Of a DNA stretch of 64,000 bases, positions 19,349-47,363 are shown in pieces. Each line of letters opens with the position of its first letter. Position 1 is the stretch's first letter. The notes under the pieces are model-generated. The model searched no databases, was not told where the DNA came from, and saw only the letters and a program-made list of their open reading frames with translations. Made by a program: the position numbers and the translations under genes. This DNA comes from Eubacteriaceae bacterium (GTDB lineage: Bacteria > Bacillota > Clostridia > Eubacteriales > Anaerofustaceae), in contig JAFZLL010000032.1 of the NCBI GenBank assembly GCA_017551505.1, forward strand, positions 62,001-126,000. Direction: 5' to 3'.

Positions 19349-20007
19349 CTGTTCTCCATCCTGCTTTTGATTATGCCGTCAAGCAGCTCCTCGTAAAGCC
19401 ATTTGTATTCAGGTCTGCGTGTGTAAAAGGCTGCCATCTGGGAAGCCATATTGTTGATCTTGGAAATATCACTGATCGTCTCGATGACTTCCCCGGAAGC
19501 TTCTTGTTTGTCTGCCTCGAAAAGGGAGCATATGCACAGGAGTATGAGCCTGTCTGAGGCGTTGTAGACCTCTTTATTCTCCAGCGCGCCGGTATCTATG
19601 GCCAGGTCGAAGACGATCCGGTCGCATTTAATGTCCCCGAGAAGCTCCTCTCTGCTGAAGCTCACTTCCTGGGGGAATTCGCTGAGGATCGCAACGTATT
19701 CCCTTCGCGCCGTCTGAGGCAGGAAAGCCGCTTCCCTCTCCGATATCCCTTTGCTTTCTGCCGTCTCGGTGATGAGACGGTCCAACTCCCTTATCCGCTG
19801 CTTTATGGCCGAAGCGCTCTGCCCTGCGTCCTTCATCCGGGATATCAGGAGCAGCCTCACGAAATGTATCTCGCTGTAATTGGCCTGATTCGGCTCAGGG
19901 TAATCCGGTGCGGGCATGAGATTCGTCTCGATATAGTATTTCACCATCCTCTCGGTGACCCCTGCGCCTTTTTTCTCGAGGGCCTCCTTGAGCTGTCGCA
20001 TTTTCAT
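19339..20007 (-). CDS. MerR-family transcriptional regulator
   Basis: 222 residues from the ATG at 20007, which has GGAGG eight bases upstream. The frame is open to 20070 but lacks a site there and would include the promoter. The N-terminus [30 protein letters not shown] is a MerR winged-helix, atypical in the recognition helix. It is followed by [21 protein letters not shown] and a coiled region. The C-terminal 130 residues are an unrecognised effector domain with scattered cysteines, including [11 protein letters not shown]. The ligand is unknown. Coupling to lepA-hemW is unusual and suggests it may autoregulate this operon. Confidence 0.78.
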
Positions 20008-29587: not shown

Positions 29588-30346
29588 TTATTCCCACTGA
29601 GACAGCATTTTATGCATCCACGAATATACGTCCATGTTATAGACCTCGCTCAGTCGCTGCGATGTCAAAACTTCTTCCGTCGTTCCGAGCGAGACTACTC
29701 TCCCTTTGTCTATCAGCATCGTGCGTGATCCGTAGGCTTTTGCCAGGTTGAGGTCATGCACGACTGACACAACCGACCTTCCCGGTTTGGAGACCCATTC
29801 TTCAATGATTTCGAAGATCTGTTTCTGGTAGATCAGGTCCAGGTGGTTCGTCGGCTCGTCAAGGATAAGCATCTCTGGGTCCTGAGCGAATAGCTGTGCT
29901 AGAAAGGCTCTCTGGAGCTCTCCTCCGGACAGTGTGAGCAGTGAATGATCCATGAGGTTCTCCATCCCTGTGAGCCGGATCGCCTCCATGATGGCCTTCT
30001 CCTCATCTTCATCCTTTTGTGCCGAAAGGAAATGGCCTTCGTAGGAATACCTGCCAAGCCTTATCAGCTCATACACCGTGAATGCATAGGATACATTGTG
30101 GTACTGATTAAGCACGCCGATATGCCTTGCCATCTGGCCTGCTTTTATGCGCGTGATGTCCCTGCCGTTGATAAGGATGGTCCCTTCATATTCCGTGGCT
30201 TTGGAAATGGCGCGCACGATAGTGCTCTTCCCTGCACCGTTCGGCCCGACGATCATCAGCCATTCGTTATCGGATACGGTAAAGTTCACGTCGGAAACGA
30301 GAGGCAAGCCGTTTGCCCTGACTGTCAGGTCATTGACCTCAAGCAT
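29588..30346 (-). CDS. btuD: ABC transporter ATPase, vitamin B12 uptake (BtuD-like)
   Basis: 252 residues, FecE/BtuD family. Walker A is GPNGAGKST (about 34-42), the signature LSGGELQRAFLAQ, and Walker B MLILDEPTNHLD. Its start overlaps the permease gene by eight bases. By sequence alone it could serve a siderophore or corrinoid system. The cobalamin riboswitch at the head of the operon points to B12. Confidence 0.9.
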   Translation of the reverse strand: MLEVNDLTVRANGLPLVSDVNFTVSDNEWLMIVGPNGAGKSTIVRAISKATEYEGTILINGRDITRIKAGQMARHIGVLNQYHNVSYAFTVYELIRLGRYSYEGHFLSAQKDEDEEKAIMEAIRLTGMENLMDHSLLTLSGGELQRAFLAQLFAQDPEMLILDEPTNHLDLIYQKQIFEIIEEWVSKPGRSVVSVVHDLNLAKAYGSRTMLIDKGRVVSLGTTEEVLTSQRLSEVYNMDVYSWMHKMLSQWE

Positions 30347-31376
30347 GGCTCTTCCTCCTGGATGAGTAGAATATGTAGATAAAGACTATTGAGCCGATGA
30401 ATGATGTCACAACGCCGATAGGCAGCACCAGCGGCCTGAGCATCGTCCGCGCAACCAGATCTGCCAGAAGCAGGAAAGTAGAGCCGCCGAAGAAAGAAGC
30501 CGGCAGGAGCCTGCGATGGTTTGGGCCTACGATGAGGCGAGTCATATGCGGGATCACCAGTCCGACAAAGCCGATAGTTCCCGCAATGGAAACGGTAACT
30601 CCTATCAGCGCAGAAACTGTAATAAGGATGATCAGCTTGAATTTCTTTACATCCACGCCTATGTTGCGGGCGTTGTCTTCCCCGATGGCAAAGGCATTCA
30701 GTTCCCTTGCGCACTTGAGTATGATGCTCCCGAAGACCGTTACGGCAATAAGCAGTATCCCCGCGTTTTCGAAGCTTGATCCGGAAAGAGAACCCATTGA
30801 CCAGAAAGTTATGTTCTTAACCCGCTCTCCGGCGAAGGTGACCACAAGGTTTATTATCGCGCTGACGAACATCGAGAAGATCACGCCGATAAGTATGATC
30901 GTCTGTGTAGAGAGCGATTTATCGAGCCTGTATGCAAGTGTAAGAATCAAAACGAGCGACATAAAGCCGAATAGCATAGCCATTCCCATCTGTCCCAGAT
31001 TGGCTAGCATCGGCAGATTCATGCCGAAAGCTATGGACAGGATCGCCCCGAGCGCTGCTCCGGATGTCACCCCGAGGGTGCTTCCGTCCGCAAGGGGGTT
31101 CTGCAGAAGCCCCTGCATGGCTGCTCCGCAGATGGACAGCGCCGCTCCGGTAAGGGCAGCGCAGCATACTCTGGGAAGTCTGACTGACATTATTATCGCC
31201 CGGTGAGAGGTGTTGCACAGCTCAGTCCCATTGAAGGTGTCGCTGATGGCGTAATAGATATCCTTCAGGGGTACGTTCACGCTCCCCAGACAGATGCACA
31301 GGACCATCGCAGCCAACATGACAGAGATAAAGATGACGTAGTCGGTCAAGCGGAAGCTTTCCGTTTTCTTCTTCAT
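30339..31376 (-). CDS. btuC: ABC transporter permease, vitamin B12 uptake (BtuC-like)
   Basis: 345 residues with about ten membrane helices, FecCD/BtuC family. Typical blocks are VRLPRVCCAALTGAALSICGAAMQGLLQNPLADGSTLGVTSGAALGA and GTIGFVGLVIPHMTRLIVGPNHR, the latter with the ATPase-coupling loop. The length matches BtuC (about 330-345). It lies 54 bases downstream of the binding protein across a small hairpin and overlaps btuD. Confidence 0.92.
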   Translation of the reverse strand: MKKKTESFRLTDYVIFISVMLAAMVLCICLGSVNVPLKDIYYAISDTFNGTELCNTSHRAIIMSVRLPRVCCAALTGAALSICGAAMQGLLQNPLADGSTLGVTSGAALGAILSIAFGMNLPMLANLGQMGMAMLFGFMSLVLILTLAYRLDKSLSTQTIILIGVIFSMFVSAIINLVVTFAGERVKNITFWSMGSLSGSSFENAGILLIAVTVFGSIILKCARELNAFAIGEDNARNIGVDVKKFKLIILITVSALIGVTVSIAGTIGFVGLVIPHMTRLIVGPNHRRLLPASFFGGSTFLLLADLVARTMLRPLVLPIGVVTSFIGSIVFIYIFYSSRRKSHA

Positions 31377-31390
31377 TGATGAACCGCCTT

Positions 31391-31409
31391 GGGGAGGCTC
31401 AGCCTCCCC
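31391..31409. repeat. Intercistronic hairpin between btuF and btuC
   Basis: GGGGAGGCT (31391-31399) pairs with AGCCTCCCC (31401-31409) around one base, so the real loop is larger and the stem shorter. It occupies the 54-base gap between binding protein and permease. It could stabilise the upstream mRNA and so raise binding-protein levels over the permease. Confidence 0.6.
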
Positions 31410-31430
31410 TGTGATTATAATGTGTTTTGG

Positions 31431-32342
31431 TTAATTGCCGTAAACGAATTCGTAAAGCATCCGGGCTCCCTCGGTCAGTCTTTGAGAAGGTCTGGTCAGG
31501 CTGCTGTCCGTATCCATCAGCACGCTGCCGTTCTTGATGGCAGTGACGTTTTCCCAGCCTTTGCGTGAGAGCACCTCGACGAAGTACTCGCCGGGATCCT
31601 CTCCGGGCGTCGACAGGATCACGATTATATCCGGATTGCGTTCGATGACCTGCTCTTCTGAGACCTGCGCCCATTTATTGACATCCTCGAAGATGTTCTT
31701 TAATTTCAGCATCTTTGCGAGCTCGTTCATAAAGGTTCCGTCTCCTGCTGTCCAGAGCCCGTACTTCAGAGGAGAGACCTCGAAATATACTGTCTTGGTC
31801 CCGTCTCCGGTCGCATTGCTTTCAAGATCAGCCAACATGGATTTCATGTCTGACACGACTTTTTCCGCTTCCTCGTCTTTGCCCATGACTTTGCCTATCA
31901 GCCTTATTTCATCGTAAATGCCGTCGATGCTCTGTGCATCCGTTACGACTACTTTGATCCCAGCAGCCTCCAGAGCATCCATCTGCTCAGTTGTCTGTGC
32001 CATCGTGCTCATGAATACCACTTCAGGTCCGAGGGCGATGATCTCTTCCACGTTGGTATCGCTTCCCGAATTGACCTTCGGGAGGAGAAGTATCTCCGCA
32101 GGATAATCGCAGAGCTCTCCGCGGCCTACGCAGTTATCCAGGCAGCCCAGCGCATAGAGGATATCTCCGGTGGCGGCGGAGAGCGGGATGACCTTCTCCG
32201 CCGGCTTATCGAGTTTTACCGTCCTTCCCGTCATGTCGGTAACAGTAATTGCTCCCGTGGGCTGCTTTTCCGGACGGCATGCCGTCATGGTTACCATTAA
32301 CAGCACTGCCAGTACAGCGGCAGTGAATTTTGAGTACTTCAA
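31431..32342 (-). CDS. btuF: Periplasmic-type B12-binding lipoprotein (BtuF-like)
   Basis: 303 residues from a TTG at 32342 with a GGGGGG ribosome site nine to ten bases upstream. The frame continues to 32585, but that part is the riboswitch RNA and is not translated. The lipoprotein signal ends VTMTAC (Cys22). ITVTDMTGRTVKLDKPAEKVIPL opens the TroA/BtuF fold, and IIALGPEVVFM plus RNPDIIVIL are typical. It delivers corrinoid to BtuCD. A siderophore role is excluded mainly by the riboswitch. Confidence 0.9.
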   Translation of the reverse strand: MKYSKFTAAVLAVLLMVTMTACRPEKQPTGAITVTDMTGRTVKLDKPAEKVIPLSAATGDILYALGCLDNCVGRGELCDYPAEILLLPKVNSGSDTNVEEIIALGPEVVFMSTMAQTTEQMDALEAAGIKVVVTDAQSIDGIYDEIRLIGKVMGKDEEAEKVVSDMKSMLADLESNATGDGTKTVYFEVSPLKYGLWTAGDGTFMNELAKMLKLKNIFEDVNKWAQVSEEQVIERNPDIIVILSTPGEDPGEYFVEVLSRKGWENVTAIKNGSVLMDTDSSLTRPSQRLTEGARMLYEFVYGN

Positions 32343-32415: not shown

Positions 32416-32585
32416 ATAAAAAAGCATCGGACGCCCGATGCTGACCTCAAGATATTACCCTTGAAAAATCTTGAGGCTGGACACATCGGGTTTGAAAGAC
32501 CTGGCTTGCCGTGAGGCTTACAGTAGCAAGGATGCTGCCGCGGATCTTCACCGTGTTCCATGCAAACCGCGAAGATGATTAACAA
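32416..32585 (-). promoter_or_regulatory. Cobalamin riboswitch with intrinsic terminator
   Basis: The minus-strand RNA contains GGAACACGGTGAAGATCC, then GCGGCAG, GCTACTGT and AAGCCAGGTC, in the order expected of the B12 (cobalamin) riboswitch. CCTCAAGAT (32445-32453) pairs with ATCTTGAGG (32468-32476). A GCATCGG/CCGATGC hairpin (32424-32430 and 32435-32441) followed by TTTTTT ends the leader. A TATAAT at 32585-32590 is the likely -10. Bound cobalamin should favour termination and so repress the importer. Motif recognition is from memory. Exact pairings were not folded by program. Confidence 0.9.
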
Positions 32586-32672
32586 TTATATTTTAGTAGA
32601 AATACGTATTTATTGCAAGCTATGAGGCCTCTGTTTTTGAATAATCAGTGTGGTCAGAACTAAATTTGACTG

Positions 32673-45233: not shown

Positions 45234-45863
45234 TCATTCGTCTCTGGTGTACCTTGTGTTGTAACCCGGATTATCCTGCGGGCGCAGTGCGTTCGGGTAT
45301 TCGATATCGGCCTGGATATCGGTCACCGCCTGCTGGATCAGCGCATAGGCTTCGTCGAAGTCTTCGATGTCCAGAAAGCTCCTGTTTCCTCCTTCGGAAG
45401 TGAATATGACATCTCCTGTGCCGAATAACCTGTCGAAAAGCCCTACATGGAGTGATACGTTGTCTATATCCCTGTAATTCAGGCTGTCGTAGGTATATCC
45501 GACCAGTCCCGAAGCGATTATGATGCGTTTATCCGTGGCTGCGTAGACAGTATGCTTCCATCTGGCAGAGGAAGTCAGCAGGTTGGACAGGAATATCCAT
45601 ACCGGGGTCAGGTGCAGTGCGAAGAAGCAGGCAAGGAATATCTTCAGTGGGAGGGGCATGTCCTCAAATTCTTTAACCAGCATCGATATGGCGAATCCGT
45701 CAAAGGCTGCCCAGACAGCCGCTATGGGCAGCATCGTAAGTATCTGCGTTGCCACATAGACCGATTTTTTCGGCTTGCCGCTCCATATCAGGTGTTCTCC
45801 GCCCATCAGCAGGTCCATCACGTCCACGTCTCCCGGCGCGTAATTATAACCGTACTTTGACAT
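45234..45863 (-). CDS. Membrane protein with bacterial PH (bPH2) domain
   Basis: 209 residues. Two membrane helices lie near 36-58 and 72-94. The C-terminal half, YAATDKRIIIASGLVGYTYDSLNYRDIDNVSLHVGLFDRLFGTGDVIF, is the bPH2 (YdbS/YdbT) fold: a Thr/Asp-Arg-Arg-like start, then a beta barrel. The function of these proteins is unknown. In Bacillus, YdbST protects against some antimicrobials. The site is GGAGGGAAAT. Confidence 0.83.
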   Translation of the reverse strand: MSKYGYNYAPGDVDVMDLLMGGEHLIWSGKPKKSVYVATQILTMLPIAAVWAAFDGFAISMLVKEFEDMPLPLKIFLACFFALHLTPVWIFLSNLLTSSARWKHTVYAATDKRIIIASGLVGYTYDSLNYRDIDNVSLHVGLFDRLFGTGDVIFTSEGGNRSFLDIEDFDEAYALIQQAVTDIQADIEYPNALRPQDNPGYNTRYTRDE

Positions 45864-46775: not shown

Positions 46776-47105
46776 TCAGTGAGTTCCCCTGACGACTTTG
46801 ACGCCGTGCTCTTCGAGATAGTTCGCGGCATCTGTCATGATGGAGCATTCTTTCCCGTCTTTGACAGTGCAGACTCCGAAATGGCATACCTCGGCGCCTT
46901 CCGATACGATCCTGTCCAGTTTTTCCTTGAAGCCGGCTTCATCGATCCCGTTTTCGCATCCGCTGCAGCGGCCGAAGGCGACCAGCTCGAGCGGCATGTC
47001 CTTGTACTGTTCAAAGGAACGGATCCTTCCGTTCAGGGCTTTGAGGCATGCGGCCCCGGTACATACGGAATTTGATTTAAGGCAGTTCATTACAGCTATT
47101 TTCAT
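46776..47105 (-). CDS. CGGC-domain protein
   Basis: 109 residues with a strong GGAGGAG site. It begins MKIAVMNCLKSNSVCTGAACLKALN and contains VAFGRCSGCENG and EVCHFGVCTVKDGKECSIM. This matches the small CGGC-domain family (PF08821), whose cysteines and histidine probably bind a metal. The usual CGGC is CSGC here. The function is unknown. An independent-looking RNA gene or leader ends 37 bases upstream and may control it. Confidence 0.85.
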   Translation of the reverse strand: MKIAVMNCLKSNSVCTGAACLKALNGRIRSFEQYKDMPLELVAFGRCSGCENGIDEAGFKEKLDRIVSEGAEVCHFGVCTVKDGKECSIMTDAANYLEEHGVKVVRGTH

Positions 47106-47142: not shown

Positions 47143-47330
47143 ACACGAAAAAGCGTGCGCCTTTTCGGCGCACGCGAAAAAACTAGTATATGATTCGCGT
47201 ACCCGGTGACGGCGGGGGCGTACCGCAGACGGCGCGTATCTGTCTTATCCTTTCCATGAAGGCTTCACAGTGACCCACTCGAGGAGCTTTTCACTCGCTT
47301 CCGCTCAATGCCTGTCCGCGTATATCGTTG
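47143..47330 (-). ncRNA. Unidentified structured RNA (small RNA gene or riboswitch leader)
   Basis: A consensus promoter (47336-47363) drives about 185 bases of RNA ending in a perfect 9-bp hairpin GCGTGCGCC/GGCGCACGC (47153-47161 with 47167-47175) and five U. The RNA holds no open reading frame with a ribosome site. Its 5' part CGCGGAC can pair with GTCTGCG about 80-90 bases later, closing a long domain. It does not match SRP, tmRNA, RNase P, T-box, SAM, TPP, lysine, glycine or GEMM consensus as I recall them. 6S RNA is possible by size. It could instead be a leader of the CGGC gene. Confidence 0.65.
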
Positions 47331-47335
47331 AGTTG

Positions 47336-47363
47336 ATTATAGCACAGTCTGGGCTGATGTCAA
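47336..47363 (-). promoter_or_regulatory. Perfect-consensus sigma-A promoter of the RNA
   Basis: TTGACA (47358-47363) and TATAAT (47336-47341) are both perfect, 16 bases apart, with TGC before the -10. This is the strongest promoter I see in the window, fitting an abundant RNA. Confidence 0.9.

Follow-up and report, generated by a model that had tools for sequence, protein, structure and literature searches.

A gene for a 109-residue CGGC-domain protein (PF08821, 80.8 bits, E=1e-22) lies on the minus strand of the window, the whole 64-kb stretch of DNA that was analysed. The gene stands alone, since the next downstream gene on the same strand, encoding a PH-domain protein (45234-45863), is located beyond a convergent rhomboid gene. 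Upstream of the CGGC gene lies a leader with its own promoter and intrinsic terminator. The features of the locus, in the order of transcription, are the following.

47358..47363, minus strand, -35 box TTGACA
47336..47344, minus strand, extended -10 element TGCTATAAT, with a spacer of 16 to the -35 box
47224..47320, minus strand, predicted cobalamin riboswitch aptamer, P2 to P2' (pairing read from the letters, and folding constrained at P2 and P3)
47231..47308, minus strand, conserved aptamer core, covered over its full length by covariance model R1 at 66.7 bits
47304-47302/47236-47234, minus strand, P3, then J3/4 GGAA
47298-47294/47286-47282, minus strand, P4, with one C.C mismatch
47277-47273, minus strand, L5 UGGGU
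47272-47265, minus strand, core motif CACUGUGA after L5
within the core, minus strand, P6 CUG/CAG
47262-47259/47252-47249, minus strand, P7 CCUU/AAGG
after P7, minus strand, core motif AUAAGACAGAUAC
47199..47223, minus strand, P13 hairpin
47213-47205, minus strand, L13 GCCGUCACC, the loop of P13
47170..47202, minus strand, predicted antiterminator, GUACGCGA (47202-47195) with UCGCGUGC (47177-47170)
47148..47175, minus strand, intrinsic terminator, made up of a 9-bp stem (47175-47153) followed by a U tract (47152-47148)
47118-47111, minus strand, Shine-Dalgarno-like AAAGGAGG of the CGGC gene
46776..47105, minus strand, CGGC-domain gene, 109 aa, ATG at 47105

The sequence-only reading had reported a perfect TTGACA-16-TATAAT promoter with a TGn extension, and this 12/12 match at 47363-47336 on the minus strand was the sole such sigma-70-type site across the 64 kb. 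Shuffled sequences of first-order Markov type contained none (60 shuffles, one strand each). Transcription would start near 47329, and the leader RNA from promoter to intrinsic terminator is about 180-185 nt long. As stated earlier, the transcript is free of open reading frames, in that none of at least 60 aa was found on the same strand. The clean terminator of the earlier description is a stem GCGTGCGCC-GAAAA-GGCGCACGC of 9 bp, 8 of them GC, followed by TTTTT. The long closing stem is likewise real and corresponds to P2, in which 47320-47310 pairs with 47233-47224 (CGCGGAC(A)GGC/GCCGTCTGCG, 10 bp, one bulged A). The distance from the edge of the described element (47143) to the CGGC start codon (47105) is 37 nt, as claimed. 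The folding energy of the leader RNA was unexceptional (z = -0.77). The minimum-energy fold is uninformative by itself, and the evidence for a structured RNA comes from comparison and not from energy.

In a blastn search against 61 relatives, conservation was confined to the middle of the leader RNA. The best relative, G006:C91 from another genus, was 88% identical over 73 nt. Genuine but shorter matches came from G005, G002 and additional sites of G006; most of the weak matches of 15-25 nt were chance. The aligned GGAA, UG-type loop, CACUGUGAAGC and AUAAGnCAGAUAC follow each other in the motif order of cobalamin riboswitches. In the window copy, this order is represented by GGAA after P3, a UG-type L4, CACUGU and AAGnCAG...AC (the B12 box), and the core has invariant columns in two alignments, A5 and A7. 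When the homologous stretches were submitted to cmscan, two of them (L037 and L033) were recognized as RF00174 Cobalamin with 38.0 and 36.0 bits, the gathering cut-off being 31.5 bits, which is a threshold of detection and not a property of an RNA.

A covariance model, R1, was then built from five copies, all from other genera (G005C11, G002C20, G006C205, G006C16a and G006C16b; alignment A4), leaving out the window copy and its nearest sister. Rfam assigns two of the five training copies to RF00174 Cobalamin with scores that exceed the gathering cut-off. Applied to the 64-kb window, R1 gave a single match at 47308-47231 on the minus strand (66.7 bits, E=2.4e-17, model positions 1-79 of 79). 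Across 81 genomes, the strongest matches belonged to the same sub-type, and weaker ones fell on canonical RF00174 sites, including five in the same genome (G000:C33, C40, C18, C59 and C36). Because R1 links the sub-type to canonical sites, the window RNA is placed in the cobalamin class through intermediate sequences. The window copy itself did not reach the 31.5-bit cut-off of RF00174 and was not matched in gathering or permissive scans: Rfam at gathering score returned nothing when run on the whole window, and nothing relevant when run on the leader region at E values up to 10. This miss is likely due to the divergence of the copy (the C.C in P4 and a GGU/GCC loop) together with the absence of P8-P12. 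A search of the plasmid database gave no match. Judged from sequence, the window RNA is very probably a divergent, library-missed cobalamin riboswitch, in the sense of class membership. The earlier suggestion of a riboswitch for a redox- or metal-linked gene was thus right about the riboswitch and not about an unknown redox or metal class. A clear match to a known family had been named as what would remove the novelty; cmscan of the window gave none, and the family was reached only indirectly, through related sequences.

Covariation was examined in two sets. For seven sequences, 95.5% of the cells in P3-P7 were paired, compared to 30-55% when the alignment was slid, and 8 of 16 pairs had changes on both sides. 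In the larger set, which had 67 sequences and also took in P13 and the L5-L13 kissing loop, the paired fraction was 93.0% against 36-46% after sliding, changes on both sides occurred in 16 of 26 pairs, and none of 500 shuffles reached the observed score. P3, P4 and P7 covary; P6 (CUG/CAG) is invariant, so that it is paired and gives no covariation. The cells of the kissing loop were paired in 91.8% over the 67 sequences, with both-side changes in two of its four pairs; the covarying versions of the loop are CGGU/GCCG, AGGU/GCCU, UGGU/GCCA and AAGU/GCUU. The conservation and covariation in relatives on which the structured-RNA claim had been made to depend are present. The earlier description was right in that the element is a structured leader acting in cis, driven by a strong promoter of its own and closed by a strong terminator.

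The window copy shares the core motifs, the P3-P7 layout, the L5-L13 kissing loop and the site before B12-related genes with RF00174 (clan CL00101). It differs from that family in lacking P8-P12, in having CAGAUAC in place of CAGRARACC, and in the C.C mismatch of P4. With the AdoCbl family RF01482, the sub-type has in common a short P6 side without long extension, and one sub-type copy (L159) scored 27.9 bits on this model, below the cut-off; in contrast, the window leader copy is unmatched by RF01482. The P4 mismatch departs from the sub-type consensus and is common to the window copy and its sister G006C91. In the kissing loop of the window copy, the GCC of L13 can pair with the GGU of L5, which makes 3 bp with the fourth position mismatched (GGU/GCC, not CGGU/GCCG), whereas most relatives have 4 bp. 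The mismatch and the shortened kissing loop could weaken function.

The part of the leader downstream of the aptamer resembles an expression platform. GUACGCGA covers a portion of the 3' arm of P13 and the bases after it, UCGCGUGC a portion of the 5' arm of the terminator, and the helix between them appears in the minimum-energy fold of nascent RNAs of 165 and 172 nt. For the full-length RNA, constrained folding gave nearly isoenergetic terminator and antiterminator states (about -61 against -60 kcal/mol), so we read the sign of regulation from the architecture. In the Priestia megaterium metE switch, which has been dissected by mutation, corrinoid acts via the kissing loop to hold P13, leading to termination (PMC10653944). 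The predicted logic of kissing loop, P13 and antiterminator, with corrinoid repressing by termination, is the same in both; the metE switch differs in its target gene and aptamer sub-type, and for the window the mechanism is a prediction.

In the proposed mechanism, RNA polymerase would start at the consensus promoter and make the aptamer. With corrinoid bound, L5 and L13 would kiss and P13 would be held closed, its 3' arm would be unavailable downstream, the terminator would form, and an RNA of about 180 nt would be released. If corrinoid is absent, the 3' arm of P13 would pair with the terminator 5' arm as antiterminator, and transcription would run on into the CGGC gene. Production of the CGGC protein would then be confined to times of corrinoid shortage, and its most likely role would be in corrinoid uptake or processing. 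We infer ligand binding, regulation sign and protein function; on the present analysis, a transcription-terminating OFF switch in which corrinoid represses the CGGC gene is quite likely.

Three other explanations were weighed. The P4 mismatch and the kissing loop, weakened relative to the sub-type consensus, together with the failure of Rfam to recognize the RNA, would fit a decayed, inactive relic of a cobalamin riboswitch, with the short RNA still made and the CGGC gene no longer under corrinoid control. We regard this as very improbable: the core is 88% identical to that of G006C91 in another genus, while the sequences of P2, P13 and terminator are unlike, and compensatory changes separate P2 and P7 of the two copies. 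In P2, the sister has GGTAGATG/CATCTATT, which is unlike the window sequence, and pairing is kept in both. Moreover, the P4 mismatch is also present in G006C91, which drives another gene, and promoter, P13, antiterminator and terminator of the window copy are intact. Still less credible, to the point of being nearly negligible, is a free-standing sRNA or 6S-like RNA, with its 3' end at the terminator and no connection to the CGGC gene. The strong promoter and terminator would yield a discrete band of about 180 nt, but a terminating riboswitch would be equally expected to do so, and neither the homology to cobalamin riboswitches nor the location of relatives upstream of B12 genes agrees with it. 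Both proposals stem from the sequence-only reading. That of a novel free-standing sRNA gave way to this homology, and that of a 6S-like RNA to the Rfam result: 6S RNA (RF00013) is similar in length, promoter and terminator, but the window leader gives no match to it, and the 6S candidate of this genome lies elsewhere (G000:C13, 44.4 bits).

An altered ligand preference, away from adenosylcobalamin and towards methylcobalamin, aquocobalamin, cobinamide or a different cobamide, would refine the cobalamin riboswitch assignment and is not exclusive with it. The sub-type carries CAGAUAC beside the ligand pocket, where the canonical copies of this genome carry CAGRARACC, and cobalamin riboswitch classes are known to differ in the forms that they bind (PMC11260477, PMC9600662). 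Even so, the downstream genes are those of ordinary B12 synthesis and uptake, for which corrinoid would still be expected, and we consider a changed preference unlikely, if less so than a relic.

The closest relatives of the CGGC protein are found in G011 (65.8% identity), G006 (65.5%), G002 (42%) and, from another family, G404 (39%). In all four, the gene directly follows ABC transporter genes: Peripla_BP_2, FecCD permease and ATPase in G011; FecCD and ATPase in G006; an ATPase fragment in G002; and an ATPase fragment, with a Peripla_BP_2 fragment upstream, in G404. At the head of the G011 operon stands a canonical cobalamin riboswitch (83.5 bits with RF00174), about 3 kb upstream of CGGC. 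The best scores of the permeases and ATPases came from models for F420-0, BtuC and corrinoid transporters, all below cut-offs, so the assignment of a corrinoid substrate rests on the riboswitch and not on the protein models. More distant CGGC genes have mostly unrelated neighbours. No recognized cobalamin riboswitch was located within 1.5 kb of 29 other CGGC genes scanned in the wider order; the pairing is therefore not general to PF08821, and the link is limited to the close branch. The congener G001 yielded no strong copy of the sub-type and no CGGC gene. For this close branch, we somewhat favour a corrinoid-related function of the CGGC protein and membership in a corrinoid regulon. This would provide a functional lead for one branch of the uncharacterised CGGC family, whose protein is small, rich in cysteine, connected with corrinoid-type transporters and probably under the control of B12. 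Literature on the CGGC domain, alone or with a riboswitch, was not found in our search. Selenocysteine at the in-frame TGA of some CGGC genes (L232-L235; G047, G045, G060, G025) was considered and rejected, as these look, on reading the sequence, like frameshifted copies.

In a collection of 84,980 species genomes of bacteria and archaea, the pattern CACTGTGAAGCN{6,36}GATAAGNCAGATAC occurred in 86 stretches; most came from Clostridia of the gut and rumen, and one from a member of the Coriobacteriales. The 61 downstream proteins included 15 Peripla_BP_2, 8 CbiK, 7 tetrapyrrole methylase, 7 CbiX and 1 CbiD; downstream open reading frames were chosen automatically, and a number of these choices may be mistaken. 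Peripla_BP_2 includes the BtuF family among others, and CbiK is a cobalt chelatase. The sub-type thus often lies before genes of B12 synthesis and transport, and the window gene is connected to them indirectly, through the BtuFCD-type linkage of its CGGC relatives. Several sub-type copies (L034, L037 [G006:C16, G006:C205] and L229 [G011:C113]) have a gene for a histidine kinase or a response regulator behind them or close by, which is an unusual target of a B12 riboswitch. The sister copy (L003/L032, G006:C91) leads genes for a family-5 solute-binding protein, a permease and an ATPase, possibly a cobalt or nickel importer. Just downstream of another copy, at L176:4370-4483, there is a sub-threshold match to Clostridiales-1 sRNA (RF01699, 37.5 bits, cut-off 48).

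The Rfam gathering scan of 18 sub-type loci reported none of the 18 copies; two RF00174 matches in these loci (L173, L150) were at other positions. R1 found all 18, with 48-93 bits, and a permissive Rfam search placed a sub-threshold RF00174 or RF01482 match at the right place for three of eight copies. B12 riboswitches are a well-known kind of element; the short sub-type and its CGGC target had previously been missed. No description of the sub-type was found in a literature search that mostly lacked subscription papers, and we claim no priority. Tentatively, and with some reserve, we propose that the sub-type (CACUGUGAAGC ... GAUAAGnCAGAUAC, no P8-P12, L13 UGCCG..ACC) may be a widespread, unrecognized subclass of corrinoid riboswitches among Clostridia of the gut and rumen, perhaps one that prefers a ligand of its own, and also that the CGGC family may have a corrinoid-regulated branch in corrinoid uptake or processing. 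B12 riboswitches serve to read which genes of gut bacteria respond to B12, and a sub-type missed by Rfam leaves B12 regulons (CbiK, corrin methylase, uptake genes) under-annotated in many rumen and gut Clostridia.

The genome has about a dozen RF00174 matches, eight of them above the cut-off. With an organism so heavily regulated by corrinoids, the assignment of the window RNA is unsurprising. A second B12 riboswitch, of the AdoCbl type, lies in the window at 32441-32587 on the minus strand (RF01482, 43.7 bits, cut-off 50), is closer to RF01482 than the leader copy, and is likewise absent from the Rfam gathering scan. It leads a BtuFCD-type operon at 29588-32330 on the same strand (Peripla_BP_2, FecCD, ABC ATPase). 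Weak or minimal cobalamin candidates in the same genome were located at G000:C3:4002-4121, G000:C53:20782-20840 and 19415-19482, and G000:C12:18587-18657. Their scores were 17.8-33.9 bits (RF00174 or R1), and some have different cores (CAGGUCUUUC, CAGAAAAUG).
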